Part shown: positions 48,198-64,000 of the stretch, piece by piece
Position numbering within the stretch: the stretch's first letter is position 1
How the letters are laid out: each line of letters opens with the position of its first letter
Source: Phyllobacterium endophyticum
Lineage (GTDB): Bacteria; Pseudomonadota; Alphaproteobacteria; Rhizobiales; Rhizobiaceae
Assembly: GCF_003010935.1 (NCBI RefSeq)
Contig: NZ_PGGN01000001.1
Coordinates: 1,054,001-1,118,000 of the forward strand
Length of the DNA stretch: 64,000 bases
Reading direction: 5' to 3'
Made by a program: the position numbers and the translations under genes
The notes under the pieces: generated by a model
The model's database searches: none
What the model was told of the DNA's origin: nothing
Seen by the model: the letters and a program-made list of their open reading frames with translations, nothing else

Positions 48198-49679
48198 CTA
48201 TCTCTGCGCACTCTTCAGGAGATACGGTCTCCACGCCCGAATTCGTTCAGCGATACTCGTAAAAACAATGTTTATCTCGTTGAGAATTGGATGGCGCGTT
48301 GCCTTCAGCCCAATGAACCATCCAATAATTGCAAGAAAGCAGACAAGGACCGTTTCAGCTGCCGTGAAGTTGAACCGGAAGCCGAGATATGCCGCAACCA
48401 GCAGTGGGCCGGTAATGGCCGATAGGCTTGCCAGGAAGCTGGGCAGGATTGCTTTGTAAAGGTCCCACCACTCGAAACGGATGTAGCGCCGGACAAAGAT
48501 GAAGCATAGCACCATCTGCAGCGGCAGGCTGATGAATTGGCTCGCGGCGATCGCGGTAACCCCAAAGAAGGCAGCGATACACAGAATAGCAGCGGAAGAT
48601 ACTCGCGAGATCATATTGAATGCAAATGCTGAACGATTGGCATTCAACGCAATCAGCAACGGGTAGGTAAGCACCACTGGGAAGAAGAAAACAGATGATA
48701 GGGTCAACAATCTCGCAATCGGTATGACGTCTTCCCATCCGTGACCCAGAACCAGCCGTACAATCGGGTCCGAAATTATTGCCACCATCAAGAGCGCTGG
48801 CCAATAGACCGCGCTAATGAAACCAAGAGCACGCAGATAAGATGGTTTAATGTCCAGATTGTTACGGACGCCCGCCGCCAGAGCGGGAAATGCCACCGAG
48901 AATACCGACGACAGAACCAATTTGTCGGGAAGATTGGATATTGTGACTGAGCGATTGTAGCGGCCAACAGCTGCAGACGACATGATGCTGCCTAACATAA
49001 CCATCGGCAGTGAATCATACAGACGGTCAACGACGCTGGTCGCACCTCTGTATCGGCCGAACCTGGTCAGCGCAGGAAGCGATTGGAAGGAAGGGATGAA
49101 GCTCCACCACAACTGACGTGCCGCAAGGGTCAATGCCGTTGAGGCAATGCTTGCAACGAGTGCTCCGATCGCAAAGCTCACAAACCCCCAATCGAGCATG
49201 GCAAAACCAATCGTTGCAATAGCATTCACTGAAAGGCGAACGGTATCTATGAGCGTAACGGTGCCGAACTGCATATCTCGCCGCAGAAGGGACAGGTTCG
49301 GGGCCGCCAGACTTTCGATCACCGCTGCCGTGATTGTCAGCCAGAGAAACAGCTTCAGTGAAACGTTTTCATAGAACTGGGCTAGCCAAGGGGACGCGAG
49401 AAAGAGTCCGATTGCCAGAATGCAGGTGAAACAGACCATTACCGTGCGGGCGGTGCATACGTCCTGCGGTTCGACTTTGTCGAGCTGAATCAGAAAATCG
49501 GATGCCACGAATTCGCGTAACGAAAAAACCATCGTCGTCACGCTAAGTCCTATGACTGACAGACCAATTTCGGTTGGCGCCATCATGCGGGACATGACAA
49601 CAATGAAGCTAAGACTTATGACAATGCTAAGGTACTGCCCCAGCGTTGCCATGAAAAAGGCACGGCGTACATATTTCAT
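48198..49679 (-). CDS. Polysaccharide flippase (Wzx/oligosaccharide flippase family)
   Basis: The 493-residue integral membrane protein has about 12-14 hydrophobic segments and begins MKYVRRAFFMATLGQYLSIV, with MAPTEIGLSVIGLSV and LRRDMQFGTVTLID in early loops. These features match the polysaccharide-synthesis (Wzx/MATE-like) flippases that move undecaprenyl-linked oligosaccharides to the periplasm. AGGAGAGG lies 9 bases before ATG 49679, which I prefer to the upstream ATG at 49709. It is the first gene of the minus-strand arm and is divergent from the pyruvyltransferase arm. Confidence 0.92.
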   Translation of the reverse strand: MKYVRRAFFMATLGQYLSIVISLSFIVVMSRMMAPTEIGLSVIGLSVTTMVFSLREFVASDFLIQLDKVEPQDVCTARTVMVCFTCILAIGLFLASPWLAQFYENVSLKLFLWLTITAAVIESLAAPNLSLLRRDMQFGTVTLIDTVRLSVNAIATIGFAMLDWGFVSFAIGALVASIASTALTLAARQLWWSFIPSFQSLPALTRFGRYRGATSVVDRLYDSLPMVMLGSIMSSAAVGRYNRSVTISNLPDKLVLSSVFSVAFPALAAGVRNNLDIKPSYLRALGFISAVYWPALLMVAIISDPIVRLVLGHGWEDVIPIARLLTLSSVFFFPVVLTYPLLIALNANRSAFAFNMISRVSSAAILCIAAFFGVTAIAASQFISLPLQMVLCFIFVRRYIRFEWWDLYKAILPSFLASLSAITGPLLVAAYLGFRFNFTAAETVLVCFLAIIGWFIGLKATRHPILNEINIVFTSIAERIRAWRPYLLKSAQR

Positions 49680-50010
49680 CGATTCGTGCCTCTCCTGCGT
49701 CGAACGCACACAATGTAGCCGATCCCGCTTTCAATGAAATGCAGCTAATGGGCGTAGCTCCCACACTAAAGCGGCGTAAACGCGGGAAATATCATCGGTG
49801 CGCGGCGAACGGATGGCGTGGAAATCGGCCCCGACAGTTTCACGCCTGCTTTCAAGACGTACGAGCTGTATGGCGACGCCGGAATGCCCTCCTCCCCCGA
49901 AAGGATAGATGGTCCCGACTGGCTTAAAAGACCATTATAAGCCTCCAGAAGCGAGACGTGTGGCTACAAGTGTTTTATTCGTTCGAAGATAATTCCCCAG
50001 AGGGCACGCT
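49680..50010. other. Divergent intergenic region of the polysaccharide locus
   Basis: This 331-base gap separates the flippase and pyruvyltransferase-like genes and must carry both promoters. An AT-rich patch around 49920-49940 contains CATTATAA, a possible -10 element for the plus-strand arm, but I see no matching -35. A ribosome binding site AGAGGG lies shortly before 50011. No tRNA, repeat or credible open frame is seen. Confidence 0.4.
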
Positions 50011-51264
50011 ATGAAGATTGGTCTATTTGGGCTCTTCGGCTGCGGGAATAGCGGAAACGATGCCTCGCTAGAATCGGCAATCGCCTTTCTCCGGCGCGTT
50101 GGCTTGGACAAAGACGTCACCTGTATATGCCCGGAGCCTAGACGGGTCGAAGAGGCGTATGGAGTACCCTCCAGGTTCCTTACTCCCCCGATCAATGAAG
50201 AATCCGCCGCGGCCAAAATAAACCGGGCGCTGCTGCGCGTGCCTTATCGTCTACTGGGAATTTGGCACGCAATCCGTGAGACACGAAAGCTGGACGTAAT
50301 AATAGTTCCGGGCACAGGTTTCCTGGACGACTTTCAGGACAGCCCGTTCGGGTGGCCCTTCATGGTGTTCAAGTGGTGCCTGGCTGGCTGGTTGCTACGC
50401 AAGGACATTTTCTTTGTCTGTATCGGCGCGGGGCCGATCAACCACTGGCTCAGCCGGTTCCTGATGAAAAGTGCAGCGCGAATGGCATCGTATCGTTCCT
50501 ACCGGGATGTCGCCTCGAAGCAATTCATGCAGAGCATTGGCATTGATGTCTCCCAGGATGGTGTCTATCCCGACATAGTCTTCAGTTTGAGCGCGATGCC
50601 ACCGCCTATGCCTCGTGATGGCGATGCGATCACCGTTGGTGTGGGAGTTATGTCCTATTTCGGCTGGTCAAGAGGCAATACAAACCGCGAGGACATCTAT
50701 CGGCGCTATCTGGCCAACCTCAATGACTTTGTTTCGTGGCTGCTGGACAATGGATTTCGGGTGCGGCTCCTGACTGGTGATGATGGGGACCGGTCCGCGA
50801 TCGATGATTTCATCCAAGGGCTGAAGTCGGCCAAAGGGCCTATCGGTGATCGTGTGTCGGCCGGAGGAACCCACACGTTGCAGGAACTCATGACCGAGAT
50901 CGTCAAAACCGACCTTGTTGTGGTTAGCCGGTATCACAACCTCGTCAGCGCGTTGAAACTCGGGCGCCCTGCGATATCACTGGAATATTCAATCAAGAAT
51001 CGCTCGCTTATGTCCGAAATGAAACTGGATGATTTTTGCCAGTCCATTGAGACATTCGACCTGGATCTTCTTAAAGAGCAATTTCGCAAGGCGCTCGAGC
51101 AGCAATCGGATCTGCGCAGGCAAATACTGAGTTGGGACGAGGAGTTCGCTAGGCGCCTTTCGACCCAAGAGGCGCGACTCCTCGAGCTTTTGCGCCGTCC
51201 GTCGCACCTTGGTCGCGTCGCGCCTACGATCGTTTCGAAGGTGGGGCCGCCATCAGTTGGATAA
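50011..51264 (+). CDS. Polysaccharide pyruvyl transferase family protein
   Basis: The 417-residue protein opens with MKIGLFGLFGCGNSGNDASL and has IVPGTGFLDDFQDSPFGWPF, FVCIGAGPINHW, YRSYRDVASKQFM and the later LVVVSRYHNLVSALKLGRPA with SLEYSIKNRSLM. These match the polysaccharide pyruvyl-transferase family (WcaK/CsaB type), which usually adds pyruvyl ketals to sugars but also includes glycosyltransferase-like members. It is the first gene of the plus-strand arm, followed after 126 bases by a GT4 enzyme. Confidence 0.88.
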   Translation: MKIGLFGLFGCGNSGNDASLESAIAFLRRVGLDKDVTCICPEPRRVEEAYGVPSRFLTPPINEESAAAKINRALLRVPYRLLGIWHAIRETRKLDVIIVPGTGFLDDFQDSPFGWPFMVFKWCLAGWLLRKDIFFVCIGAGPINHWLSRFLMKSAARMASYRSYRDVASKQFMQSIGIDVSQDGVYPDIVFSLSAMPPPMPRDGDAITVGVGVMSYFGWSRGNTNREDIYRRYLANLNDFVSWLLDNGFRVRLLTGDDGDRSAIDDFIQGLKSAKGPIGDRVSAGGTHTLQELMTEIVKTDLVVVSRYHNLVSALKLGRPAISLEYSIKNRSLMSEMKLDDFCQSIETFDLDLLKEQFRKALEQQSDLRRQILSWDEEFARRLSTQEARLLELLRRPSHLGRVAPTIVSKVGPPSVG

Positions 51265-51390: not shown

Positions 51391-52587
51391 ATGAAGTTCG
51401 CTTATTTTGTACATCCGCACATTGGCGGCACGTACACCGTTTTCAAGCAATTGCGTGAGGGCCTGGCCGGTTACGGTATTGAGGTCTGCTGGCTGGCAAT
51501 GGGTGAAAGCGAAGCCTTGAAGCAGCCGCAATGGTTCCCCGAATTTGCACTCGGCAACAGCCTCGATATCGACGGGATGGCGACGGAGCGCGATCAGGCG
51601 AGGGCATTGGCGCAGGCAATTGCTGCGGGTGGTTTCGATGGTGTCTTCATCAATGTTCTGAGTGATCGTGTCCAGACCAATATCGCGCGATATTTGCCTG
51701 ACGAAGTCATGCGCATCATGATCGTGCACAACATCACGGCAGGAACCTATGCGGCAGCTTTGTCCGTTCGCGACCATGTTCACGCGGCCGTAGGGGTTTC
51801 GGATCGCATCAGGGACGATTTGATCCAGGCGATGGGCTTCCCAACCAAACGGACATTTTCCATTCCCCATGCGGCCGAGACCCGGTCTTCAAGAACGATC
51901 GAGCGAAAGGCGAGGACCACCGAGCCGCTCCGCGCCATCTTCCTTGGACGCGTCGAAGATGCTTCCAAAGGAGTATTCTGGCTTCCTGAAATATTGGACA
52001 AGCTCGACCCGTCGATTCACCTGACCGTTGCCGGCGACGGGCCGGACCTCAAGGCTCTGAAATTGAAGCTGGCGCGTCATTCCGGACGCGTCACATTTCT
52101 GGGTGCAGTGCATCCGAGTAAGGTACAGAAGCTCCTTTTCGAGCATGACGTCATGGTCATGCCATCACGGTTCGAGGGCTTCGGCCTGACGTTGACCGAG
52201 GCGATGGCTGCCGGGTGCATACCCGTGGTCTCACGCATTCGCGGTGTGACCAGTATGATCGTCGACGATGGAGTGGATGGTTATCTCTTTCCGATCGGCA
52301 ACACGGCGGAAGCAGCGCGTATTATTACAAAGATCGCCACCAATCCAGAGACTGCAAGCTCACTTTCGCTGGCCGCCCGGCAGAAGGCAGAACAGGTATT
52401 CACCATCGACTCCATGGCGCGGCGCTACTTTGATGTGATTGAGCAGGTCAGCGAAGGGCGCTTCGAAATAGCGCCGCCTCTCGATATCGAGGAATGGTCT
52501 TTGCCGAAAGGCCTTCGGCCCGCATTGCGGACGTTCATTCCAAAGCCGATCAAGAACTGGCTCCGGGTGATGCGGGAAAGAATCTGA
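51391..52587 (+). CDS. Family 4 glycosyltransferase
   Basis: The 398-residue GT-B enzyme has the nucleotide-binding half with LRAIFLGRVEDASKGVFWLP, LTVAGDGPDLKALKLKL and VTFLGAVHPSKVQKLLFEHD, and the hallmark MPSRFEGFGLTLTEAMAAG with the donor-binding glutamates. It probably builds the repeat unit in the cytoplasm. It lies between the pyruvyltransferase-like gene and the class III aminotransferase, all in the same direction. The donor sugar is unknown. Confidence 0.93.
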   Translation: MKFAYFVHPHIGGTYTVFKQLREGLAGYGIEVCWLAMGESEALKQPQWFPEFALGNSLDIDGMATERDQARALAQAIAAGGFDGVFINVLSDRVQTNIARYLPDEVMRIMIVHNITAGTYAAALSVRDHVHAAVGVSDRIRDDLIQAMGFPTKRTFSIPHAAETRSSRTIERKARTTEPLRAIFLGRVEDASKGVFWLPEILDKLDPSIHLTVAGDGPDLKALKLKLARHSGRVTFLGAVHPSKVQKLLFEHDVMVMPSRFEGFGLTLTEAMAAGCIPVVSRIRGVTSMIVDDGVDGYLFPIGNTAEAARIITKIATNPETASSLSLAARQKAEQVFTIDSMARRYFDVIEQVSEGRFEIAPPLDIEEWSLPKGLRPALRTFIPKPIKNWLRVMRERI

Positions 52588-52695
52588 AGCAGTACTTCTT
52601 TTGGGGCTGCCGGTGACTGAATTGCCGAAGTGAGTTCACCGACAGAGCGCTCTATTCTGGAACAAAGTTTGAAGCGCGTTCGACACGCTGAGGCA

Positions 52696-54093
52696 ATGAA
52701 TTCGAAAACTGAGGTTTGTCACATGGCCGCACCGATCGGCAACTTTGAAAAATCAAACCGGCTACGTCCGCTGGCGCATCGTCTCATACCAGGCGGCGCC
52801 CATACCTACGCAAAGGGAGACGACCAATATCCCGTCCTCTCGCCAGGTTTCATTGCGCGGGGCCTGGGAAGTCATGTCTGGGATGTCGATGGCAACGAAT
52901 ACATCGAATACGGCATGGGCAACCGGTCCGTAGGCCTCGGTCACGCCTATGGGCCTGTTCTTGAGGCAGCGACGCGACAACTCCAGCTCGGCTGCAATTT
53001 TACGCGGCCGGCCAGCATCGAAGTAGAATGTGCGGAAACCTTCCTTGCGACTATTCCCGGCGCAGAAATGGTCAAGTTCTGCAAGGATGGATCGGATGCG
53101 ACATCCGGCGCGGTACGGCTCGCGAGGGCGGTGACCGGGAGGGACATCATCGCACGGTGCGCCGATCATCCATTCTTTTCCACGGATGACTGGTTTATCG
53201 GTGACACCGAGATGAACGCAGGCATTCCGGCTGCCGTGCGGAACCTTACGGTCGACTTTCGGTATGACGATCTTGAAAGCGTGCGCCTTCTCTTTAACCG
53301 GTACCCGGGAAAAATAGCCGCACTTATTCTCGAACCGTCACGTGGTGACGATCCAAAGAATAACTTCCTCCATGCGGTGCGGGATATTTGCCACAAAAAT
53401 GGCGCGCTGGTCATTCTCGATGAAATGATCACGGGTTTTCGCTGGCACGCCGGCGGCGCTCAACAACTATATGATATCCAGCCCGATTTTTCCTGCTTTG
53501 GCAAAGCACTGGGCAACGGCTTCTCGATTTCGGCGCTTGCCGGCAAACGCGAGTATATGAAACTTGGTGGTCTTGAACAGACGGGCAGCCCGCGTGTGTT
53601 CTTGCTTTCCACGACTCATGGCGCGGAAACGCATGCAATGGCGGCATCCATCGCGACGATGCGCATTTACCAGGACGAGCCTGTCATCGACCATCTGTAC
53701 CGTCAGGGTGAAGCCCTGAGAGCCGGTATAGAACAGGTGGTATCTCGTCTCGGCCTCGCGGAATTCTTCCAGGTCACTGGCCGATCCTGCTGCCTGACCT
53801 ATGCTACACGCGACCAGAACAAATCGCAGTCTCAGGCATTCCGAACACTATTCCTGCAGGAAACCATAAAGCGCGGCGTGCTTATGCCTTCGCTCGTGGT
53901 CAGCTACACGCATAGCGATGAGGACGTCGCGCGCACGATCGAGGCAGTTGACGGTTCGCTCGGGGTTTACAAACAGGCACTCGAAAACGGTGTTGAAAAC
54001 TACCTCGTAGGCCGCCCGTCCGACGTTGTGTTCCGCCGCTTCAACAAGAGCCCGGCGCCTGTACGTGAACGGGAACTGGCAACGTATGATTGA
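52696..54093 (+). CDS. Class III aminotransferase, glutamate-1-semialdehyde aminomutase-like
   Basis: The approximately 465-residue PLP enzyme resembles HemL: RLIPGGAHTYAKGDDQYP near the start, VWDVDGNEYIEYGMGN, FCKDGSDATSGAVRLAR for PLP phosphate binding, VILDEMITGFRWHAGG for the cofactor Asp, and the Schiff-base lysine in CFGKALGNGFSISALAG. Heme synthesis here runs through ALAS, so a HemL role in tetrapyrrole synthesis is not needed; within a polysaccharide locus it more likely makes an amino sugar or amino-acid substituent. ATG 52696 has GAGG close upstream; GTG 52630 is possible. Its last 8 bases overlap the next gene. Confidence 0.87.
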   Translation: MNSKTEVCHMAAPIGNFEKSNRLRPLAHRLIPGGAHTYAKGDDQYPVLSPGFIARGLGSHVWDVDGNEYIEYGMGNRSVGLGHAYGPVLEAATRQLQLGCNFTRPASIEVECAETFLATIPGAEMVKFCKDGSDATSGAVRLARAVTGRDIIARCADHPFFSTDDWFIGDTEMNAGIPAAVRNLTVDFRYDDLESVRLLFNRYPGKIAALILEPSRGDDPKNNFLHAVRDICHKNGALVILDEMITGFRWHAGGAQQLYDIQPDFSCFGKALGNGFSISALAGKREYMKLGGLEQTGSPRVFLLSTTHGAETHAMAASIATMRIYQDEPVIDHLYRQGEALRAGIEQVVSRLGLAEFFQVTGRSCCLTYATRDQNKSQSQAFRTLFLQETIKRGVLMPSLVVSYTHSDEDVARTIEAVDGSLGVYKQALENGVENYLVGRPSDVVFRRFNKSPAPVRERELATYD

Positions 54094-55429
54094 TGTGGTT
54101 TCGCGGTGCTGGCGCTATCTGCTCCTGGTGATGCTGATCCTGATGCCTTTGAGCGTTCACGCTGAGGGGACCAAGTTTCCCCTTCGGGTTGCGGAAAATC
54201 GCCGCTATCTTGAAGATGCGACTGGCAAACCGTTCCTGATCACGGGCGAGGCTGCATGGTCGCTGATCGGAGATCTTTCCCGCGAGGACGCTGACAAGTA
54301 TCTCGCTGATCGGCAGCGCCGGGGCTTCAACACCATTCTTGTTTCGCTTATCGAACATCGGTTCAGCCGCAACGCGCCGCGCAATTTTTACAAGCGAGCG
54401 CCTTTTATGGTGGAAGGAGATTTCACCAAGCCGAATGAAAGCTACTTCAACGATGCGGACTGGATTCTCAATCGAGCGAGGGAACGCGGTTTCCTCGTTC
54501 TGCTTGTTCCATCCTATCTAGGCTCCGGTGGAGGGCCAGAAGGCTGGTTTCGGGAAGTCCAGGCGGCGGGACCCGAAGCGATGCGAACCTACGGGCGCTA
54601 TCTTGGCGAGAGATTTCGCAAATACCCGAATATCGTCTGGGTCCAAGGCGGCGACTATGATACGCCCGACAAGAGTTTGGTGGATGAGCTTGCGCGCGGC
54701 ATATCGGACATCGATCCGTCAGCTCTCCAGACTGTTCACCGTGGACCGGATACGCTCGGCAGTATGGAATGGGCGGGGGTGCCTTGGTTCAAGCTCGACA
54801 CGCTCTATGCTTATGACGATATCATCGATCGCGCGCTCCAGCGTGCGAGCACGGGACCGGAGATTCCATTCTTCTTTATCGAGGGTCCTTACGAGAACGA
54901 GCGAGGATCGGATGAGCAATCGCTTCGCCTGAACGCGTATGGCACAATTCTGTCAGGCGCTTGCGGCCAGATATTCGGCAACAACCCACTTTGGCATTTC
55001 GCGGGGCCTGGCCTTTATGACGTGGCAGGGACGTGGGAGGATGCATTGGCAAGCCGCGGCTCGCAGAGCATCACCCATCTAAAGCGCCTTTTCGACCCAC
55101 TTCCCTGGTGGGAACTTGAGCCCGAACGCGGCCGACTTCTGGCAAAACGAGGACAATCGTCCAAGGGTAACGCCTTGGGCGCGCTGACGAGGGAGGGCAC
55201 CTTGGCTGTGCTCTATTTGTCCGGACAAAGGTCTGTCGCCATCGACACAAATGCGTTAACCAAATCCGTCGGGCTTGCACGCTGGTACGATCCGGCTTCC
55301 GGTAATTATATGGACGAACCTGAGGCTGGAGCCATCGGACAGCAGGGGATTGTGACCTTCGAAGTGCCTCGATCCGCCAACTCCGGAGGCTTCGAGGATT
55401 GGGTGCTGGTTCTGACGAAGAGAGGCTAG
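54086..55429 (+). CDS. Secreted DUF4038 glycoside-hydrolase-like protein
   Basis: The 447-residue protein has a signal peptide (hydrophobic residues 10-24, cleavage probably after HAEG near 27). The mature part starts with FPLRVAENRRYLEDATGKPF and LITGEAAWSLIGDLSREDAD, the signature of DUF4038, a TIM barrel related to apiosidases (GH140). Candidate catalytic residues are the Asp in WVQGGDYDTP and Glu in FFFIEGPYENE. A C-terminal beta domain (about 355-447) resembles the putative collagen-binding domain that often follows. The start overlaps the aminotransferase stop by 8 bases, so it is co-translated with a sugar-synthesis gene. It may trim or process the polysaccharide in the periplasm. Confidence 0.85.
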   Translation: MIDVVSRCWRYLLLVMLILMPLSVHAEGTKFPLRVAENRRYLEDATGKPFLITGEAAWSLIGDLSREDADKYLADRQRRGFNTILVSLIEHRFSRNAPRNFYKRAPFMVEGDFTKPNESYFNDADWILNRARERGFLVLLVPSYLGSGGGPEGWFREVQAAGPEAMRTYGRYLGERFRKYPNIVWVQGGDYDTPDKSLVDELARGISDIDPSALQTVHRGPDTLGSMEWAGVPWFKLDTLYAYDDIIDRALQRASTGPEIPFFFIEGPYENERGSDEQSLRLNAYGTILSGACGQIFGNNPLWHFAGPGLYDVAGTWEDALASRGSQSITHLKRLFDPLPWWELEPERGRLLAKRGQSSKGNALGALTREGTLAVLYLSGQRSVAIDTNALTKSVGLARWYDPASGNYMDEPEAGAIGQQGIVTFEVPRSANSGGFEDWVLVLTKRG

Positions 55430-55566
55430 GTCCAGCAAAAGGCGTAGCGCATTTGCCGAAAGTGTAGTTCTGACGGCATACGTTCCTCCGAACTCCTCTC
55501 TCGCGGTTCAGCCTCCTCCTCAGTACCTTCCAGGAGAAAAACAGCTATCCCGGAAGGACGTACAGA

Positions 55567-56637
55567 ATGAAAGTGCTTGTTACAGGACACCGCGGTTATA
55601 TCGGAACAGTGATGGCGCCTTTTCTGATGAAAGCGGGCCATGAGGTTCACGGTTACGACGCCGAGCTTTATCGCAGTTGCTCCTACGCGCCCGGCGGTTC
55701 CATTGCCGATGTGCCGGCGCTGTGCAAGGACGTGCGAGACGTGACCGTGAGTGATCTCAAGGGCTTTGACGCAGTCATCCATCTCGCCGCATTGTCGAAT
55801 GATCCGCTGAGTAATCTCAACCCCGATATCACGTACGAAATCAATCATCGCGGCAGTGTGAAATTCGCCGAAACAGCAAAAAAAGCCGGCGTATCACGCT
55901 TTCTCTTTGCATCGTCCTGCAGCAATTACGGCAAGTCCGGCGAGGGAATGATCGACGAAACCGGCCAGCTAAATCCGGTGACGGCCTATGGCTCCTCGAA
56001 AGTCCTCGCTGAAAAAGATATCGCGAAACTCGCCGACGACAACTTCACGCCCACATATCTGAGGCCAGCGACAGCGTACGGTCTGTCGCCTATGTTGCGT
56101 TTCGATCTCGTTCTGAACAATCTGGTCGCGTGGGCCGTCACTGAGGGTGTGATCCTGCTGAAGTCAGATGGCTCGCCCTGGCGCCCAATCGTCCACATCG
56201 AGGATATTTCCCGGGCATTTCTTGCCGCCATGGAAGCTCCGAAGGAAAAGGTCCATAATGAGGCATTCAACGTCGGCCAGTCGGCGCATAATTACCGGAT
56301 AAGGGAAATTGCAGAGATCGTGGCGCAGGTCGTACCGGGCTGCCGTCTGGAATTCGCTGATGATGCAGGCCCCGACACACGTTCCTATCGGGTAAGCTTC
56401 GAAAAGATCGCAAGAATACTTCCGGCATTCAAGCCCGTGTGGGATGCCAAAGCCGGCGCGGAGCAGTTGCACGCGGCTTACATGAGTGCAGGTTTGACCC
56501 TTCAGGAGTTCGAGGGTCCGCGATATCAGCGGATCAGCCATATCCGGAAGTCTCTGGACGAGGGTACTCTCAATCAGAGCCTGCGCCGTGTCCCATCGTC
56601 GTCGCGGCATCCGGCTTTGGCCGATGCTGTCATATGA
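55567..56637 (+). CDS. NAD-dependent nucleotide-sugar epimerase/dehydratase
   Basis: The 356-residue extended SDR enzyme has the cofactor motif [18 protein letters not shown], then [32 protein letters not shown], and the catalytic Tyr-Lys pair in [14 protein letters not shown], followed by [12 protein letters not shown] and [17 protein letters not shown]. It acts on a nucleotide-activated sugar, as an epimerase, dehydratase or reductase; the CxNYG version of the active-site region is seen in a recurring surface-sugar subfamily. It begins the second sub-operon after a 137-base gap and is followed after 16 bases by a DUF4910 gene. Confidence 0.9.
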
Positions 56638-56653
56638 CGGCTTTGAGTCGGCC

Positions 56654-58030
56654 ATGAACAGCTTTATGGTATCGTTCGATACAATCAGGTCGACGGGCGA
56701 CGCCGAGGTAGATGTGGGAATCCGCATTTACGCTCTCGCCGCCAGGCTCTTTCCGATCTGCCGTAGCATAACCGGGGATGGCGTGCGTGAAACGCTGCAA
56801 ATCCTTGGCCAGCAGATCGATCTGACCCAATACGAGGTTCCAACCGGTACACCGGTACTCGATTGGACGGTGCCACAGGAATGGAACATACGCGACGCGT
56901 ACATCAAGAATCCGTCAGGCGAGAAGGTGCTAGATCTAGCCGAGAATAACCTTCACGTTTTGGGCTATAGTATTCCCGTGCAGAAGACGATGCCGCTCGG
57001 CGAACTGAAATCGCATATCCACACCCTGCCCGAACAACCCAGCCTTATTCCCTATAGAACTTCATACTATAACGAGCAGTGGGGCTTCTGCATGGCCCAT
57101 GATGATTTTGCGCAGCTCGAAGACGGGAACTATGAGGTCTACATCGATTCCGAAAAGCGGGATGGGCACCTTAGCTATGGCGAATACGTGCATAAGGGTC
57201 ACACGGACAGGGATGTTCTACTTTCGGCTCACATCTGCCATCCCTCGTTAGCCAATGACAATTGTTCGGGGCTCGCATTGCTGGCTTGTCTCGCCAAAGC
57301 GTTGCGCACGCGCAAAACACGGTACAATTACCGCTTTCTTTTTGCGCCTGGAACGATCGGTGCGCTCACATGGCTTGCGGGCAATGAGCACAAGGTCTCC
57401 AGTATTGACCACGGCTTGATCGTTTCCTGTGTTGGCGACGGCGGCGGACCCAATTACAAGCGAAGCCGTCGGGGCAACTCCGTTATAGATCAGGTGATGG
57501 AATACGTGTTGAGCGTGGACGAAAGGCATGGAACAATCAGCGAGTTCAGTCCCTACGGTTACGACGAGCGCCAATATTGTTCGCCCGGATTCAACCTTCC
57601 GGTGGGGCTCTTCCAGCGAAGCGCCTTCGGAACGTTTCCCGAATATCACACCTCGGCCGACAATCTGGATTTTATCTCGCCGGAACATCTGGCTTCATCC
57701 TATCGGATGATCATGGAAGCCATCGATATACTGGAGATGAACTGGACGCCCCTTAACCTCTTTCCGAAAGGCGAGCCCCAGCTCGGGAGGCGCGGCCTTT
57801 ATTCGGCCTTGGGCGGCGATAAATCTGCAGGTGAAACCGCGATGGGATATTTATGGGTGCTCAACTTGGCGGATGGCAATCATACGCTGCTGGATATCAC
57901 TCGACGTTCAGGCATGTCCTTCCGTGATATCGCTCGCGCCGCGCAACTGCTTCTGGCCAATGGCCTGCTCGCCGACATCAGTGAGCAGCCCCCTCAGGCG
58001 GGTGAGACATCCATCAGTGGCCATACCTGA
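56654..58030 (+). CDS. DUF4910 zinc-peptidase-like protein with C-terminal winged helix
   Basis: The 458-residue protein begins with a helical region (ALAARLFPICRSITGDGVRE), has a beta-rich part (VPQEWNIRDAYIKNPSGEKV), and then an M28-like aminopeptidase domain with metal-ligand-type residues in LSAHICHPSLANDNCSGLAL, RFLFAPGTIGALTWL and GTFPEYHTSADNLDFI. The last 80 residues look like a winged helix (LDITRRSGMSFRDIARAAQL). This is the DUF4910 arrangement. No signal peptide is present, so it acts in the cytoplasm, which is unexpected for a peptidase in a polysaccharide operon. Its substrate is unknown. The 3' end overlaps rfbC convergently by 37 bases. ATG 56666 or 56624 could be the start. 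Confidence 0.82.
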   Translation: MNSFMVSFDTIRSTGDAEVDVGIRIYALAARLFPICRSITGDGVRETLQILGQQIDLTQYEVPTGTPVLDWTVPQEWNIRDAYIKNPSGEKVLDLAENNLHVLGYSIPVQKTMPLGELKSHIHTLPEQPSLIPYRTSYYNEQWGFCMAHDDFAQLEDGNYEVYIDSEKRDGHLSYGEYVHKGHTDRDVLLSAHICHPSLANDNCSGLALLACLAKALRTRKTRYNYRFLFAPGTIGALTWLAGNEHKVSSIDHGLIVSCVGDGGGPNYKRSRRGNSVIDQVMEYVLSVDERHGTISEFSPYGYDERQYCSPGFNLPVGLFQRSAFGTFPEYHTSADNLDFISPEHLASSYRMIMEAIDILEMNWTPLNLFPKGEPQLGRRGLYSALGGDKSAGETAMGYLWVLNLADGNHTLLDITRRSGMSFRDIARAAQLLLANGLLADISEQPPQAGETSISGHT

Positions 58031-58533
58031 TCCTTGTCTGAGAGGACACTCGGCAGTGCCGGCCACTCTATCCCGAAAGCAGGATCGTCCCACCTGACGC
58101 CCGTTGATGCTTGCGGGTGGTAGAACTCCGATATCAAATAGGAAACCGTTGCGTCGTCGCGCAAAGTCTGGAACCCGTGGGCAAAGCCCTTGGGGATGTA
58201 AAGTTGGCGGCCATTGCTCTCAGAAAGTTCATAGGCTGCCCAGTGCCGGCACGTAGGGGAATGGGGCCGCAAGTCGACGATCACGTCCATTATGGCGCCG
58301 CGGATGCAGGAAACGACTTTTACCTCCTCATGTGGCGCTACTTGAAAATGCATTCCCCTCAGCGTGTGTTTCCTGACGGAATGCGACATGCTGTGCTGCA
58401 CGAACCTTGTTTCAAGGCCGTGTTCCTTGAACTCATTGAGGCAGAATGTTCGGGCGAACGATCCACGGTCGTCGGAGATCGGAAGGACTTCGACCAGCCA
58501 TGCGCCATTCAGTTTCGTCTCGGTAAATCGCAT
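57994..58533 (-). CDS. dTDP-4-dehydrorhamnose 3,5-epimerase family protein
   Basis: The 179-residue cupin has the RfbC signature: VLPISDDRGSFARTFCLNEF, the catalytic histidine in TLRGMHFQ, VSCIRGAIMDVIVDLR and LYIPKGFAHGFQTLRDDATV with the second active-site region. Family members epimerise C3 and/or C5 of dTDP- or CDP-4-keto sugars, so it may act in the deoxysugar pathway encoded around it. It is oriented opposite to all its neighbours and its 3' end overlaps the DUF4910 gene. Whether it is a 3-, 5- or 3,5-epimerase cannot be read from sequence. Confidence 0.92.
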   Translation of the reverse strand: MRFTETKLNGAWLVEVLPISDDRGSFARTFCLNEFKEHGLETRFVQHSMSHSVRKHTLRGMHFQVAPHEEVKVVSCIRGAIMDVIVDLRPHSPTCRHWAAYELSESNGRQLYIPKGFAHGFQTLRDDATVSYLISEFYHPQASTGVRWDDPAFGIEWPALPSVLSDKDQVWPLMDVSPA

Positions 58534-58857
58534 TCCAACCGCCTTCGCTCGATCCAGCTTTGAAGATTCGATTTTGTCAAACTCTGCCCGGGCGCGAAAC
58601 TCACAATAAGAGGTAGCGTCGCTGTGGGAGCAGGCAACGTTGTCGACGTTCTCTAGGCAGGCAGCCCGTCCGGCAGCGAAAGCCGCACTCCGTTTGAGGG
58701 ACGTGCTGTAAGGGGACGATCCACCGTTCGGATGAGCCCACTGATCGCATTGTCATATCGCCCGTGCGTGCCGGACGCCGTAACTTTGGTCATGAGGGCG
58801 CCGCTTGCCGAAATTCTGCGCGGCAGGTGATGACACGTGATGATCAGGAGCGAAGGC
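58534..58857. other. Divergent intergenic region between rfbC-like gene and methyltransferase
   Basis: This 324-base gap separates the rfbC-like gene (minus) and the methyltransferase (plus) and should contain both promoters. A short inverted repeat AACGT-N5-ACGTT lies near 58637-58651 and could be an operator, but it is short. An open frame on the minus strand shows no coding character. No RNA gene was recognised. Confidence 0.4.
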
Positions 58858-60153
58858 ATGAACATTCAAACCAATGCTGTTTTGTTGGCAGAACGCCCAG
58901 GCGATAAGGTGCACTCCTGCCGCCTGTGCGGAACCGGTTTGAAACACACCTTCATCGACCTTGGAATGCAGCCTCCTTGCGAGAGCTTCGTTCCGCGTGA
59001 GTTGCTCGACACTATGGAGCCCTACTACCCGCTCCACGTTTTCGTGTGCGAGGAATGTCTGCTTGTACAGTTGAACGAGTATGTCAGCCCGCAAGCTATC
59101 TTCGAAGAATATGCCTATTTCTCTTCCTATTCCACGAGCTGGGTCGCGCATGCGAAGAGATATTGTCATCAGATGGCCGAGCAGCTGAATCTTGGCCGTG
59201 ACAGCCTTGTCGTCGAACTCGCCAGCAATGACGGTTACTTGCTTCAGCACTTTCTTCCATTGAATATTCCCGTGCTCGGCGTGGAGCCGGCAGCCAATGT
59301 CGCCAAGGTAGCGGTTGAGAAGGGCATCCCGACTCGCGTGGAATTCTTCGGCGAAAGATATGCGCGGGAGCTGGTCGGAGAAGGTCTGAGGGCAGATCTG
59401 ATCGCCGGTAACAATGTGCTTGCCCAGGTGCCGGATCTCAATGATTTCGTTGCCGGCATGAAAATTCTTCTTAAGCCTGAAGGCGTTATCACGCTGGAAT
59501 TTCCTCATATCGAGAAACTGATCGCGGAAAACCAGTTCGATACGATCTATCACGAGCACTTCTCCTATTTCTCGCTCCTCACGATCCAGCTTATGGCTGA
59601 GCGGCACGGATTGAAGATCATCGATGTAGAGGAATTGGTGACGCATGGCGGTTCGTTGCGCGTGCACCTCGCGCATCTGGAGAGCGAGCGTCCAACCCAG
59701 TCCAGCGTCGAGCGTGTATTGAACAACGAGATCAACTCGGGTCTCGACCGGATCGAGGTATATACTTCGTTTGTCGAGAACGCCCGCAAGGTGAAGCGCG
59801 AGCTCCTGTCCTTCCTGATCGCTGCAAAAGAGGCGGGGAAGACTATTTGCGGATACGGCGCGCCCGGCAAGGGCAACACAATGCTCAACTACTGCGGGAT
59901 CGGAACAGATTTCCTTGATTTCACGGTGGACAGGAATCCCTACAAGCACGGCCGCTATACGCCGGGCATGCATATACCGATCGAACCGGTTGAAGCGATT
60001 GATCTGAAGAGACCCGACTACATCCTCATCCTGCCTTGGAATCTCAAGGACGAAATCGTTGCGCAGATGCGGCATGTGCAGGAATGGGGCGCCAAGTTCA
60101 TTGTCCCCATTCCAGGTGTAGCGGTCATCGACCCAAAGGAGCTCAAGCCATGA
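58858..60153 (+). CDS. SAM-dependent sugar C-methyltransferase (NovU/TylC3-type architecture)
   Basis: The 431-residue protein has an N-terminal zinc-binding module with CRLCGTG and VCEECLLVQL, a class I methyltransferase core with the SAM motif VVELASNDGYLLQHF and EPAANVAK, and a C-terminal domain with GYGAPGKGNTMLNYC and YILILPWNLKDEI. This three-part layout is that of C-methyltransferases acting on 4-keto nucleotide sugars, which create branched deoxysugars. ATG 58858 is preceded by AGGAG at 7 bases. Its stop overlaps the cytidylyltransferase start by 4 bases (ATGA). Confidence 0.92.
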   Translation: MNIQTNAVLLAERPGDKVHSCRLCGTGLKHTFIDLGMQPPCESFVPRELLDTMEPYYPLHVFVCEECLLVQLNEYVSPQAIFEEYAYFSSYSTSWVAHAKRYCHQMAEQLNLGRDSLVVELASNDGYLLQHFLPLNIPVLGVEPAANVAKVAVEKGIPTRVEFFGERYARELVGEGLRADLIAGNNVLAQVPDLNDFVAGMKILLKPEGVITLEFPHIEKLIAENQFDTIYHEHFSYFSLLTIQLMAERHGLKIIDVEELVTHGGSLRVHLAHLESERPTQSSVERVLNNEINSGLDRIEVYTSFVENARKVKRELLSFLIAAKEAGKTICGYGAPGKGNTMLNYCGIGTDFLDFTVDRNPYKHGRYTPGMHIPIEPVEAIDLKRPDYILILPWNLKDEIVAQMRHVQEWGAKFIVPIPGVAVIDPKELKP

Positions 60154-60962
60154 AAGTAGTTCTGTTCTGTGGCGGCATGGGCACTCGCATCCGGGAATAT
60201 TCGGAGAACGTTCCTAAACCGATGATCCCGCTGGGATCCCAGCCCATACTGCGGCATGTCATGCAGTACTATGCCGATTACGGGCACGATGATTTCATCC
60301 TCTGCCTTGGTTACAAGGCCAATGTCGTCAAGGACTTCTTCCTTAATTGCCGGCCGCAGACATTCTCCGACTGCGTGGTCACGGGCGATGGCAATGTTGA
60401 GGTGCTCGGGGAATCGCAGAAGGATTGGCGGATTTCGCTGATCGACACAGGTATTTGGCGCAATATCGGCGAGCGCCTCTGGGCGGTACGCGACCAGGTG
60501 AAAAACGAGAAAATCTTCCTCGCCAATTATAGCGACGGCCTCAGCAATGTGGACCTCGACGATATGATCGAGAAGTTCGAAGCCAGCGGAAAAATCGCCT
60601 GCTTCCTCGCCGTACGGCCGCCGCTCACCTATCATCTGGCGGATATCGCTGAAGACGGACGCGTTCGTGAGTTTCGCTCCTCTGACCGGTCCGACATCTG
60701 GATAAATGGCGGCTACTTCCTCTTCCGCGGCGAGATATTCGACTATATGCGCGAGTCCGAGGAACTCGTACTCGAACCCTTCAGCCGATTGATAAAAGAC
60801 GATATGCTGATGGCCTACAAGCACGAAGGATTCTGGCGTTCAATGGACACTCTGCGCGACTGGCAAGCGCTGCAGGAGATGGTTGAACGCGGGGAAATGC
60901 CTTGGACAGCCCATGGAGCGTTGAAGGACGGCTCGAACATCCGCCTGGTAAAATCGCTATGA
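60150..60962 (+). CDS. Glucose-1-phosphate cytidylyltransferase-like nucleotidyltransferase (RfbF type)
   Basis: The 270-residue enzyme activates a sugar 1-phosphate, most likely as a CDP-sugar. It has the pyrophosphorylase motif VVLFCGGMGTRIREYSENVP followed by KPMIPLGSQPILRHVM, and the RfbF-like blocks DDFILCLGYKANVVKDFF, YSDGLSNVDL, WINGGYFLFRGEIFDYM and HEGFWRSMDTLRDWQALQEM. The segment after the nucleotide-binding part lacks the usual MTGGR-type sequence of classic RfbF, so base or sugar specificity may differ. It overlaps both neighbours by ATGA junctions. Confidence 0.9.
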   Translation: MKVVLFCGGMGTRIREYSENVPKPMIPLGSQPILRHVMQYYADYGHDDFILCLGYKANVVKDFFLNCRPQTFSDCVVTGDGNVEVLGESQKDWRISLIDTGIWRNIGERLWAVRDQVKNEKIFLANYSDGLSNVDLDDMIEKFEASGKIACFLAVRPPLTYHLADIAEDGRVREFRSSDRSDIWINGGYFLFRGEIFDYMRESEELVLEPFSRLIKDDMLMAYKHEGFWRSMDTLRDWQALQEMVERGEMPWTAHGALKDGSNIRLVKSL

Positions 60963-61618
60963 GGCAATTGCCTCTGGCAAGGCGCGGAGAGCGCCTTTCC
61001 GTTCTCTGTCTGGGAGCTCATTCGGACGACATCGAAATCGGAGCGGGGGGAACAATCCTGCGACTCATCGAGGATGGCGTGCTGCTTGATGTTCATTGGT
61101 GCGTGCTGAGCGCGTCCGGCGCCCGTGCAAGCGAAGCGAACGCGTCCGCCCTGGCCTTCCTTGAAGGCGCAGCATCACGCAGGGTGGAACTTGCCAACTT
61201 TGAAGACAGTTACTTCCCCGATCAATCCCGCACCATCAAGCATTGGCTCAATAGCGTGCGCGACCGGATCTCTCCGGACGTGATCTTTACCCACGCGCGT
61301 GATGATGCGCATCAGGATCACCGGGAAGTCAATCGTCTTACCACCAACGTCTTTCGCGATCATCTTGTATTGGAATACGAGATTCCCAAATGGGATGGCG
61401 ACCTGGCGCAGCACAATACCTATATGCCGCTCACAGCTCGCATCATGGACCGGAAAACACAACTTCTTCTCGAGCATTTTGGCACGCAGCGTTCCAAGGA
61501 CTGGTTTGACGAACTGACATTCACGGGCTTAGCCCGGCTCCGCGGCATGGAATGCCGTGCGGAAGAGCGTTTTGCTGAAGCCTTCACCAACCGGAAGCTG
61601 TCATTGTCGATAGGTTGA
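60959..61618 (+). CDS. PIG-L family deacetylase
   Basis: The 219-residue protein is a LmbE/PIG-L zinc deacetylase. The metal-binding AHSDD motif is at residues 20-24 (CLGAHSDDIEIGAGG) and the second ligand region is HARDDAHQDHREVNRL. Members remove N-acetyl groups from sugars such as GlcNAc-containing precursors or mycothiol intermediates. Here it closes a three-gene ATGA-linked operon with the methyltransferase and cytidylyltransferase, so it probably deacetylates an amino sugar of the same pathway. Confidence 0.92.
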   Translation: MRQLPLARRGERLSVLCLGAHSDDIEIGAGGTILRLIEDGVLLDVHWCVLSASGARASEANASALAFLEGAASRRVELANFEDSYFPDQSRTIKHWLNSVRDRISPDVIFTHARDDAHQDHREVNRLTTNVFRDHLVLEYEIPKWDGDLAQHNTYMPLTARIMDRKTQLLLEHFGTQRSKDWFDELTFTGLARLRGMECRAEERFAEAFTNRKLSLSIG

Positions 61619-62019: not shown

Positions 62020-62811
62020 ATGGAGAATACTCATCCATCCCGCTTGGGCAAAAGCGAATTAGAACCAACTGATCGTGAGATCATCGTAAATAACAATCAG
62101 CAATCGTCCGATAGGTATAACGACAATCGTCAATTCCAAAAATATAGTCCTGATGACTACTTGGCGATTGTAGACAAGCGCGCTCTCGAACGCGAATGCC
62201 TGGCACAGGCCTTGATCAATCATCATATAGGCCTCAAAGTATTTACGTTCGGCAGTTTGGAAGAATGGCAGGCATCTAAAAAAGAAATATCAAATCTGCG
62301 CGCGGTGTTGATAAACACGGGCAATCGAACGCTGGATGACGCCAATCTTACTGCCGAGATTAGTGAGCTCGTTGCAACGTTTCAAACTGCGGCCGTTGTC
62401 GTCGTCGCCGACAATGATGATCTAACATTCATTTTGAAGGCTCTTGAGCTTGGCGTACGCGGATATATACCGACCACCGTTGGTATCGAGATTTGCATGC
62501 AGGCTATTGAGCTCGCGATCGCCGGTGGGAAGTTTGTCCCAGCAAGTAGTGTGTTGAGCCTGCGCAAGCTGCTTGGTGGTCGAAGCGACGAGTTCCGTCA
62601 CATCACGACATCCTTTACCGCACGACAGTCCGCAGTTGCTGAAGGTCTTCGGCGCGGCAAGGCAAACAAGATCATCGCCTACGAACTGAACCTTTGCGAA
62701 AGCACGGTGAAAGTTCACATCCGCAACATCATGAAAAAGCTGGGTGCCACGAACCGGACCGAGGTTGCATACAAGATCAGCGACATGATTCCGCATGAAT
62801 CCAGATTCTGA
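62020..62811 (+). CDS. LuxR-type regulator with degenerate receiver domain
   Basis: The 263-residue protein has an unusual polar N-terminal tail (about 45 residues rich in N, Q and S), a receiver-like domain (about 46-165) and a C-terminal LuxR helix-turn-helix (about 195-255; FTARQSAVAEGLRRGKANKI, LCESTVKVHIRNIMKKLGA). In the receiver-like part the phosphoacceptor position holds Asn99 (AVLINTG) instead of Asp and the conserved Lys is Thr152 (RGYIPT), so phosphorylation control is unlikely. It sits between the sugar operon and the chain-length gene and probably regulates polysaccharide synthesis. Its upstream region and 5' codons are AT-rich compared with neighbours. Confidence 0.9.
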   Translation: MENTHPSRLGKSELEPTDREIIVNNNQQSSDRYNDNRQFQKYSPDDYLAIVDKRALERECLAQALINHHIGLKVFTFGSLEEWQASKKEISNLRAVLINTGNRTLDDANLTAEISELVATFQTAAVVVVADNDDLTFILKALELGVRGYIPTTVGIEICMQAIELAIAGGKFVPASSVLSLRKLLGGRSDEFRHITTSFTARQSAVAEGLRRGKANKIIAYELNLCESTVKVHIRNIMKKLGATNRTEVAYKISDMIPHESRF

Positions 62812-62859: not shown

Positions 62860-64000
62860 ATGATCGTTTCTGAAGTTTTGCCTTCCGAGGGCGGGATGCC
62901 GCTATCGCGCATCCTTGCGCTTCTGATGAACAGGTGGCCTACAGTTCTGTCGGCCATCGCCCTGTGCATCGGCTTGGCGATATTGGGTTACATGGCAAAG
63001 CCGGCCAAGTACAGTTCTGAAGCGATCCTCGCGCTTGACGTTCGCAAGTTGCAGGCACTTCCCAATGAATCGGTAGTGTCGCCACTCCCGCAGGAAAGCC
63101 CTGTTTTACGAACAGAGCTGGACATCATCAGTTCACGGTCCATGGCCGAGAAGGTGCTGGCGGATCTTGATGGTCAAGGATTTGACCCAAGCGGCAATAT
63201 GATACCCCCCGAACAAAGGGTGGCCGTTGCCAGCGATGCATCGGCCCCGTCGGATCGGATGCGAATCGACCGCCTTCTGTCCAACCTCGACGTTGTCAAC
63301 GACGGCCGGTCCTATACTATTTATATCAGCTACCAGGCCAACAATCCTGAATATTCGGCCGCTGTCGCCAATGCCTTCGGTGAGGCCTATCTCAACTATC
63401 AGATCGACTTGCAGACATCGGCTACACGCCGGGTCAGCGAATGGTTGGGCGGCAAGCTCACCAGTCTTCGCGCTACGCTCGAGCAATCGGAGCGCGCCGC
63501 GGCCGATTTCCGTGAGAAATCCGGACTGGTGAAGGCAAACGGCATGACGCTCCAGTCTCAGCAGATAGCAGCGCTCAATGCTGAACTTGCCACCTTGCGC
63601 GGCAAGCTTGCAGGTGCCGAAGCCCGGCTGTCGACGGCGATCGAGGCGTCCAAGAACAATTCGGGCGTTGCCCTGTCTGAAATCCTGAGTTCACCTGCCA
63701 TCCTGGCGTTGCGGACTGAACAATCCCGTATCGAAAGACAGATACAGCAGATCAGGGAAAGCGGCGCCACCCAGAGCGTGCAGTTGCCGCAACTGACTTC
63801 CCAGCTCGAATCGCTCAAGACCCAGATCGGCGTCGAAGTTCAGCAAATTCTCGATAGCCTCAGGAACGAGATCAATGTCACGCATCTTCAGCAGGCGTCG
63901 GTTGAGGCAAATCTGAAAGAACTGCAGGACAGCATGTCGACGGCCAACAAGGCAAGTGTTCAGGCTGACCAGCTCGATCGTGAAGCCGCGGCGAACCGTG
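62860..64000 (+). CDS. Polysaccharide chain-length/export protein (Wzc/ExoP/GumC-like), partial
   Basis: The frame opens at ATG 62860 and runs past the right edge, giving 380 visible residues. It starts with a short cytoplasmic segment (PLSRILALLMNRWPTVLSAI) and a membrane helix (about 25-45). A Wzz-type periplasmic domain follows, with YSSEAILALDVRKLQALP, LRTELDIISSRSMAEKVL and YTIYISYQANNPEYSAAVAN, then long coiled-coil stretches (about 195-380). This is the polysaccharide co-polymerase family controlling chain length and export; the tyrosine-kinase domain of ExoP/Wzc, if present, would lie beyond the window. It follows the regulator by 48 bases. Confidence 0.92.
   Translation, partial: MIVSEVLPSEGGMPLSRILALLMNRWPTVLSAIALCIGLAILGYMAKPAKYSSEAILALDVRKLQALPNESVVSPLPQESPVLRTELDIISSRSMAEKVLADLDGQGFDPSGNMIPPEQRVAVASDASAPSDRMRIDRLLSNLDVVNDGRSYTIYISYQANNPEYSAAVANAFGEAYLNYQIDLQTSATRRVSEWLGGKLTSLRATLEQSERAAADFREKSGLVKANGMTLQSQQIAALNAELATLRGKLAGAEARLSTAIEASKNNSGVALSEILSSPAILALRTEQSRIERQIQQIRESGATQSVQLPQLTSQLESLKTQIGVEVQQILDSLRNEINVTHLQQASVEANLKELQDSMSTANKASVQADQLDREAAANR

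Follow-up and report, generated by a model that had tools for sequence, protein, structure and literature searches.

A conserved gene set in Phyllobacterium endophyticum that probably builds a methyl-branched surface sugar, with one enzyme in place of the usual dehydratase

We analysed a 64,000-nucleotide stretch of the Phyllobacterium endophyticum genome (contig NZ_PGGN01000001.1, positions 1,054,001 to 1,118,000; this whole stretch is the window), which maps to contig C4 of the 5.5 Mb genome. Within 9.0 kb of a polysaccharide cluster, it encodes an aminotransferase, a short-chain dehydrogenase/reductase (SDR), a DUF4910 protein, an RfbC-type epimerase, a sugar C-methyltransferase (MT), an RfbF-like cytidylyltransferase, and a PIG-L-type deacetylase. 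The set is widely conserved and probably builds a methyl-branched surface sugar by a route in which one enzyme, the SDR, replaces the usual dehydratase. It is very likely that the products of these genes work together in a single pathway leading to a C-methylated nucleotide sugar. The whole proposal, a single pathway to a 3-C-methyl-branched sugar that is activated by cytidine diphosphate (CDP) and destined for an exported polysaccharide, is one we hold with moderate confidence. The first-pass annotation had noticed this grouping, and it is real: Pfam and NCBIfam profile searches, the source of the family assignments of window proteins, confirmed each of the families named. With an accessory hydrolase, the set comprises eight genes:

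52630..54093, plus strand: HemL-like class-III aminotransferase of the PRK06209 family (longest open reading frame from GTG 52630, likely start ATG 52723)
54086..55429, plus strand: apiosidase-like glycoside hydrolase, accessory (PF13204 and PF12904; likely start ATG 54086)
55567..56637, plus strand: Cj1427-like SDR, proposed CDP-sugar C4-dehydrogenase (PF01370; SSCS..Yx3K)
56588..58030, plus strand: DUF4910/DUF2172/HTH_47 protein of the CA_C2195 type (open reading frame from GTG 56588, likely start ATG 56654)
57994..58533, minus strand: RfbC-type 4-keto-sugar 3,5-epimerase (dTDP_sugar_isom; convergent with the DUF4910 gene)
58837..60153, plus strand: NovU/TcaB9-type sugar C-methyltransferase, the MT (Methyltransf_13 and Methyltransf_14; GTG 58837, ATG 58858)
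60150..60962, plus strand: divergent cytidylyltransferase, RfbF-like (EKP lysine motif absent; start codon within an ATGA shared with the stop of the MT gene)
60959..61618, plus strand: PIG-L-type zinc deacetylase (PF02585; ATGA overlap with the RfbF-like gene)

The interval first drawn around these genes, 54086 to 61618, starts at the likely ATG of the apiosidase-like gene, which had gone unnamed, and leaves the aminotransferase gene (52630 to 54093) almost wholly outside. The ATGA overlaps said to join three of the genes are present in the DNA, where the MT stop meets the RfbF-like start (60150-60153) and the RfbF-like stop meets the PIG-L start (60959-60962).

Co-occurrence of the homologues had been set beforehand as one test of the pathway idea, and they do co-occur. 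Among 297 genomes from the order, one and the same group of 15 carries MT (at least 65% identity), the RfbF-like protein (at least 65%), and DUF4910 (at least 55%). The SDR (at least 63%) is found in 14 of those 15 and in one other genome (G245). The identity thresholds were placed at steps in the distributions (65 to 56 for MT, 65 to 42 for RfbF, and 63 to 58 for SDR); the step for DUF4910 is small (55 to 52). Gene order has been reshuffled between lineages while the set was kept, which argues that it is one real unit and not an effect of kinship alone. For example, the RfbF-like and PIG-L genes are on the opposite strand in L044 and L045, and the SDR-DUF4910 pair follows PIG-L in L041. Matches to MT also occur in 161 plasmid records, 22 of them at 60-80% identity. 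Six of these 22 were examined, from Sinorhizobium, Mesorhizobium, Agrobacterium, Shinella, Neorhizobium, and the rhodobacterial Qingshengfaniella (the record of NGR234 is unannotated and was read by tblastn). The order SDR-DUF4910-RfbC-MT-RfbF-PIG-L is identical in all six.

The key evidence on the SDR comes from the one genome of the 15 that lacks it, a Hyphomicrobium (G053, locus L141; no match at 1e-50). Its locus encodes instead an RfbG, which is above the cut-off of 278 bits both in the locus (392) and genome-wide (404). The gene ends where DUF4910 starts, in the position usually taken by the SDR. Among the 15 carriers (the window's genome and the 14 others searched), only G053 passes the RfbG cut-off. 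The divergent enzyme is also its only RfbF-type enzyme (221 bits; the next matches score 30 and 23). RfbG-type dehydratases use CDP-glucose (PMC12369002), so that the divergent RfbF of G053 most likely makes CDP-glucose. Because RfbG replaces the SDR in a genome whose sole RfbF-type enzyme is the divergent one, the SDR probably does the job of RfbG, supplying a CDP-4-keto sugar to RfbC and MT. The same swap makes it quite likely that the sugar is CDP-linked.

Relatives of the SDR outside the 15 carriers are found in similar company. There are 31 such genomes with an SDR-family match, 12 of which also have an RfbF match; in 11 of these 12, the two genes are same-strand neighbours, 24-86 bases apart (nine are from one genus, and G246 was projected from a partial match). 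We fetched eight loci of SDR relatives, three for an adjacent RfbF match and five for an adjacent MT match. An RfbF-type transferase lies directly before the SDR in all five MT-adjacent loci, which gives the order transferase-SDR-MT, and one of the three RfbF-adjacent loci (L183) reads RfbF-SDR-RfbC. Of three transferases scanned, two (L182 and L184) score above the RfbF cut-off and one (L185) falls short of it. RfbG at 38% identity or more is in none of the eight fetched stretches; the rest of those eight genomes was not searched for it. L184, L187, L188, L185, and L186 are short transferase-SDR-C-methyltransferase operons with one or two weak methyltransferase homologues (21-25% identity). 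Among lower-identity relatives (L053-L057), RfbF, RfbG, MT, and RfbC occur together in L053, L054, L056, and L057, and L055 showed MT alone; RfbG was over the cut-off in both loci scanned. The transferase and MT thus flank RfbG in these sibling operons and the SDR elsewhere, so the two enzymes occupy the same place. In the tree, a branch with 100/98 support separates the 25 SDR rows, whatever their neighbours, from those of RfbG and the UXS-like enzymes.

The residues of the SDR suggest how it may act. Nucleotide-sugar 4,6-dehydratases carry an acid/base motif of the form [ST]DE, [ST]DK (for CDP-glucose), or [ST]SE (PMC8987622). The SDR has S-C-S at these positions in all 22 aligned rows and keeps the Yx3K dyad. 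The acid/base pair is therefore missing, and we set aside an ordinary 4,6-dehydratase. Both by sequence (157.7 bits; next 92.8) and by fold (Foldseek rank 1 on the SDR model, pLDDT 91.8), the nearest solved relative is Cj1427, at about 26% identity. Cj1427 oxidises C4 of a heptose linked to guanosine diphosphate (GDP) and retains the NADH, being recharged by alpha-ketoglutarate (PMC10680097). The SDR thus looks like a Cj1427-type C4-dehydrogenase without a dehydratase pair. We consider it likely to be the 4-keto-forming step, and the missing pair and the kinship with Cj1427 suggest that it may be a CDP-hexose C4-dehydrogenase. The first-pass annotation had called the product a deoxy sugar. This part was not supported: the set has no enzyme that would take off the 6-hydroxyl, the genome has no CDP-glucose dehydratase above the cut-off, and the SDR lacks the acid/base pair. 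Whether the pathway dispenses altogether with 6-deoxygenation is, in our estimate, an even matter.

Relatives of the set are found well beyond the order. A scan of GTDB genomes by RfbF-like alignment gave at least 569 confirmed stretches (from at least 591 candidates), of which the best 80 are the named loci counted here; the RfbF-like gene is in 80/80 by construction. The loci L038-L051 are partly duplicates of these (L041/L160, L046/L141, L048/L132, L049/L136, L050/L138) and so do not enter the counts. By title, 67 of the 80 are alphaproteobacterial or labelled Proteobacteria only, and 13 are from Planctomycetes, Cyanobacteria, Nitrospirae, Ignavibacteriae, and others. Scored with identity thresholds of our choice, and with short stretches lowering the counts, PIG-L is present in 76 loci, MT in 68, RfbC in 58, DUF4910 in 54, SDR in 52, the aminotransferase in 35, the apiosidase-like protein in 20, a DXR-II-like protein in nine, and RfbG in one. 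Of the 53 loci for which 20 kb or more is available, 35 have all six core genes. RfbF-like and PIG-L genes are adjacent on the same strand in 73 of the 76 PIG-L loci, and the SDR adjoins DUF4910 in 37 of the 42 loci holding both. A protein family that we left unassigned, with the motif AGEWVEVR or AGDWVEVR, is encoded in 21 of 95 clustered loci (e.g. L169:12500-13597 and L156:13002-14192).

The other enzymes keep the residues expected of their families (these counts include the window and take only rows that cover at least 85% of the query and are free of internal stops). MT has the Methyltransf_13 and Methyltransf_14 layout of the NovU/TcaB9 group and scores 250-274 bits against solved sugar 3-C-methyltransferases (the D-mycarose type, TcaB9, and 5t64, which we take to be KijD1). 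It shares with these antibiotic-pathway enzymes, which act on sugars linked to deoxythymidine diphosphate (dTDP), a three-domain layout and the HEH motif region. H239-E240-H241 is kept in 65/65 rows and Tyr238 in 64/65; this YHEH motif, common to 3-C-methyltransferases, argues for a C-methylating role. The earlier suggestion of a C-methylated CDP sugar is thereby borne out by inference, from the RfbG swap for CDP and from the motif for C-methylation. RfbC scores 176.5 bits with TIGR01221 (cut-off 155.75) and has His62, Lys72, and Tyr132, presumably the RmlC/RfbC active site in this numbering, in 55/55 rows. PIG-L keeps the AHSDD and HxDH zinc residues in 68/68 rows; despite this motif we set aside BshB1 (TIGR04001, 54.6 bits against a cut-off of 182.5). 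DUF4910 has the single-zinc set H197, S199, D203, P233, and H333 (numbered from base 56651) in 44/44 rows. These are the His/Asp/His ligands of the CA_C2195 family, with Ser and Pro replacing the catalytic residues of M28, for which reason we rejected a peptidase. The aminotransferase matches PRK06209 at 777 bits (cut-off 486) and keeps the pyridoxal phosphate Lys and Asp in 35/35 rows. An amino group on the sugar, which the first-pass annotation had also proposed, would rest on PIG-L and on this aminotransferase, found in 35 of the 80 named loci described above.

The RfbF-like protein is the most divergent of the set. It has the GGxGTR loop and the fold of 1TZF/1WVC (the predicted model repeats the sequence result), and its TIGR02623 score of 210 bits is below the cut-off of 300.25. 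Sugar-1-phosphate nucleotidyltransferases have an EK(P) lysine motif. EK is kept in all eight transferases that lie beside an SDR in stretches without a PIG-L match. Loss of EK and presence of PIG-L go together, yet EK is also absent from the PIG-L-less L135, L157, L164, and L172, three of which are short stretches. In one reading, the enzyme may take a modified sugar phosphate, perhaps an N-acylated one, which PIG-L would later free. None of the marks of the classical RfbF/RfbG route to CDP-6-deoxysugars was found: neither an RfbF score above cut-off, nor the EK(P) motif, nor a genomic TIGR02622 match above cut-off.

Elsewhere in the genome, sugar-nucleotide genes of other kinds occur. As the first-pass annotation had reported, the gene set itself holds no RfbA, RfbB, or CDP-glucose 4,6-dehydratase (RfbG). 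RmlA and RmlB are above their cut-offs on contig C4, at about 468-471 kb, where there is also a second RfbC-family gene. Genome-wide, no CDP-glucose 4,6-dehydratase (TIGR02622) exceeds its cut-off (best 74 bits against 278). The first-pass view that this is not a standard rhamnose or tyvelose route is also upheld: RmlA, RmlB, and RmlD are not in the set, which sets aside a dTDP-rhamnose pathway, and a tyvelose pathway is set aside by the lack of an RfbG over cut-off. A Gmd over its cut-off (575 bits) lies about 3.4 kb past the window end, so the polymer may also contain fucose-type sugars. A second Gmd-type gene, at 405 bits against a cut-off of 415, adjoins a transferase of the GMP_PMI type (C5:859-862 kb). 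The genome has a single match to PF02585 (PIG-L) and a single one to PF08421 (MT), and a protein search for DUF4910 likewise gave one. The RfbF-like protein is 99% identical to its counterpart in Phyllobacterium trifolii.

Together these results suggest the following route. The RfbF-like enzyme would join cytidine triphosphate and a hexose-1-phosphate into a CDP-hexose, a step best supported by G053, with its sole RfbF-type enzyme and an RfbG in the cluster. The SDR would then oxidise C4 to give a CDP-4-keto-hexose with the 6-hydroxyl kept. Judging from its intact catalytic residues, RfbC would epimerise C3 and/or C5, and MT, by its fold and motif, would methylate C3. An amino or acyl substituent may be adjusted by PIG-L and DUF4910, together with the aminotransferase in loci that have one. 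Finally, the glycosyltransferases, flippase, and export genes of the cluster would place the sugar in a surface polysaccharide.

Several observations weigh against this route. The Fisher p-values for co-occurrence take no account of relatedness, and the exchange of SDR for RfbG comes from one genome. In L183, about 4 kb from the RfbF-SDR-RfbC run, there is a distant STDK-motif SDR (L183:2762-3814); it scores 122.8 bits against the RfbG model, which is under the cut-off. The SDR is counted in 52 of the 80 loci, one of these a fragment, and three more loci have relatives at 35-37% identity. Among the 53 loci of at least 20 kb, ten have neither the SDR (at least 40%) nor RfbG; four of these ten have a UXS-like SDR, and seven loci in all hold UXS-like SDRs in its place. 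The RfbF-like protein lacks EK in all 80 named loci (77 by pattern, three by eye) and may therefore use a sugar-phosphate other than glucose-1-phosphate. The SDR model superposes on TunA, a 5,6-dehydratase, with TM-scores of 0.74/0.86, against 0.72/0.83 for the top Cj1427 chain, and both TunA and the SDR have Cys in the acid position. Lastly, no separate C4-reductase was recognised in the gene set, so the SDR could itself be a reductase or an epimerase.

In loci without the Cj1427-like SDR, another SDR with the motif SSSEIYG was seen, both in other phyla (L163:337-1377, L168:5223-6254, L169:5277-6344, L171:5645-6709, L174:6261-7295) and in metagenome-assembled genomes of Alphaproteobacteria (L148:16604-17659, L149:16163-17209). 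The best solved relatives of the one in L168 are UDP-glucuronate decarboxylases.

If the SDR were the final C4-ketoreductase or a 4-epimerase, a 4-keto-6-deoxy sugar would come from RmlB or Gmd elsewhere and the product would be a C-methylated 6-deoxysugar. The genome does encode RmlA, RmlB, and Gmd, the SDR resembles GalE (TIGR01179, 101 bits, under the cut-off), 4-epimerases are described as lacking the acid/base pair (PMC8987622), and the set offers no other candidate for the reduction. However, G053 exchanges the SDR for a 4-keto-forming enzyme, and relatives of the SDR lie between a nucleotidyltransferase and MT in five of the eight fetched loci. Moreover, RmlB and Gmd use dTDP- and GDP-sugars, whereas the transferase conserved here belongs to the RfbF type. 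We find this alternative unlikely. More doubtful still is that the SDR is an unorthodox 4,6- or 5,6-dehydratase, with a TunA-like Cys as the acid, making a 6-deoxy or 5,6-ene C-methyl sugar. The replacement by RfbG in G053 fits such an enzyme, as do Cys118 at the acid position and the good structural match to TunA. Yet 22/22 rows have Ser instead of Glu or Lys at the base position, and the nearest relative by sequence is the C4-dehydrogenase Cj1427.

Equally doubtful, in our view, is a split of the set into two modules, SDR-DUF4910 and MT-RfbF-PIG-L, making different residues of one polysaccharide and close together only because polysaccharide genes cluster. The SDR-DUF4910 pair is indeed 11-12.5 kb away in four of 14 genomes and on another contig in one of the 14, and a Clostridium cluster of different make-up is described as having DUF4910 next to an epimerase (PMC4000134). 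Nevertheless, MT, RfbF-like, and DUF4910 share the same 15 genomes, the set is kept despite the shuffled gene order, and relatives of the SDR adjoin MT in loci without DUF4910. A mere chance grouping is excluded by three homologues sharing exactly 15 of 297 genomes.

Some related loci point to a variation on the C4-dehydrogenase route that we prefer. In eight of the 80 (L137, L147, L149, L151, L156, L158, L169, and L171), a DXR-II-like protein is present and no MT was found; L150 has both, and L127, L129, L148, and L157 have neither in the stretch. The gene adjoins RfbC on the same strand in 9/9 loci, and the DXR-II-like proteins of both loci scanned (of the nine) match PF21135. That of L158 scores 218 bits with the solved 3upl/3upy, which we take to be Brucella DXR-II. 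DXR-II makes methylerythritol phosphate, and two clades related to it, DLO1 and DLO2, are described as uncharacterised (PMC3847144). This suggests a second branch-forming chemistry: by analogy, a reaction of the DXR-II type on a 4-keto sugar would give a ring-contracted, C3-branched sugar. A broader and tentative idea, which we think rather improbable as a whole, is a family of dehydration-free branched sugars. In it, a Cj1427-like SDR would give a CDP-4-keto-hexose with the 6-hydroxyl kept, and C3-branching enzymes would be interchangeable: the NovU-type methyltransferase adding a methyl, or, in sister clusters, the DXR-II-like reductoisomerase leading to an apiose- or streptose-like sugar. 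PIG-L and DUF4910 would finish an amino substituent.

The closest known systems share parts of the set. Operons of RfbF, RfbG (ddhA-ddhB), and a 3-C-methyltransferase with RfbC have in common with it an RfbF-family CTP transferase, RfbC, and a NovU-type C-methyltransferase; Sinorhizobium meliloti SMb21416-21418 is tabulated as such a ddhA-ddhB-3-C-methyltransferase trio (PMC4053727). In contrast, the window set has no RfbG and a divergent RfbF without EK, and adds the SDR, PIG-L, and DUF4910. In Campylobacter jejuni, the route to GDP-glycero-heptoses through Cj1427 likewise uses a C4-dehydrogenase of the same SDR kin, followed by a C3/C5-epimerase whose 4-keto substrate retains the 6-hydroxyl (PMC10680097). 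Such epimerases are distant matches of the window RfbC. However, this route starts from a GDP-heptose, and the term 'C-methyl' is absent from the text of PMC10680097. The CDP-fucofuranose pathway of C. jejuni HS:41 also starts from CDP-glucose and has a 3,5-epimerase acting on a CDP-4-keto sugar, but it uses a 4,6-dehydratase and a C4-reductase, and its abstract mentions no methyl branch (PMC12369002).

The first-pass annotation had presented the pathway as undescribed, which is right in part. A link of DUF4910 proteins to the synthesis of modified cell-surface carbohydrates, perhaps by transacylation, was proposed already in 2014, with an epimerase, a nucleotidyltransferase, an N-acetyltransferase, and a methylase among the neighbours (Das et al. 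2014, PMC4000134). The CA_C2195/DUF4910 proteins discussed there have the same residues as ours and are linked to the epimerase, nucleotidyltransferase, and methylase. The main text of that paper has no cytidylyltransferase ('cytidylyl-'), aminotransferase, PIG-L, or deacetylase, and the sections consulted lay out no route. A Campylobacter screen gives DUF4910 one table line (PMC10832277). For the fuller gene combination, the literature searched, which covered few subscription papers, yielded no relevant paper, and it assigned no sugar to the gene set. Among the papers matched there, none by its title deals with the structure of a Phyllobacterium polysaccharide, and a search for vinelose was empty. 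For the Bradyrhizobium loci, a bradyrhizose pathway was set aside, with none of five gene terms in PMC4743980.

The eight-gene set is flanked by a pyruvyl transferase/GT4 pair on one side and a LuxR/co-polymerase pair on the other. The context genes are:

48198..49709, minus strand: oligosaccharide flippase-like protein (22-47% identity to proteins of the L032-L037 clusters)
50011..51264, plus strand: polysaccharide pyruvyl transferase of the same polysaccharide cluster
51391..52587, plus strand: GT4 glycosyltransferase of the same polysaccharide cluster
62020..62811, plus strand: LuxR-type response regulator, so annotated in related clusters
62860..63999, plus strand: start of a polysaccharide co-polymerase/autokinase gene that runs off the window, named after the annotation of related clusters

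The relatives of the flippase-like protein in L032-L037 are annotated, where at all, as flippase or lipopolysaccharide biosynthesis protein. A tRNA-Phe gene (45232-45307) just ahead of the polysaccharide cluster is a possible island boundary. The apiosidase-like (DUF4038) protein at 54086-55429 has, judged by eye, a signal-peptide-like start; a branched residue of the polymer may be its cleavage site.

The gene set gives the DUF4910 family a concrete candidate pathway, and its relatives occur in many Alphaproteobacteria and, by the titles of the records, also in Planctomycetes, Cyanobacteria, Nitrospirae, and Ignavibacteriae. If the proposal is true, a widespread 'SDR epimerase' would actually be a CDP-sugar C4-dehydrogenase, which would be a second way, beside RfbG, of supplying C-methyltransferases. 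Plant-associated bacteria would then be expected to have non-deoxy C-methyl sugars in their surface polysaccharides.

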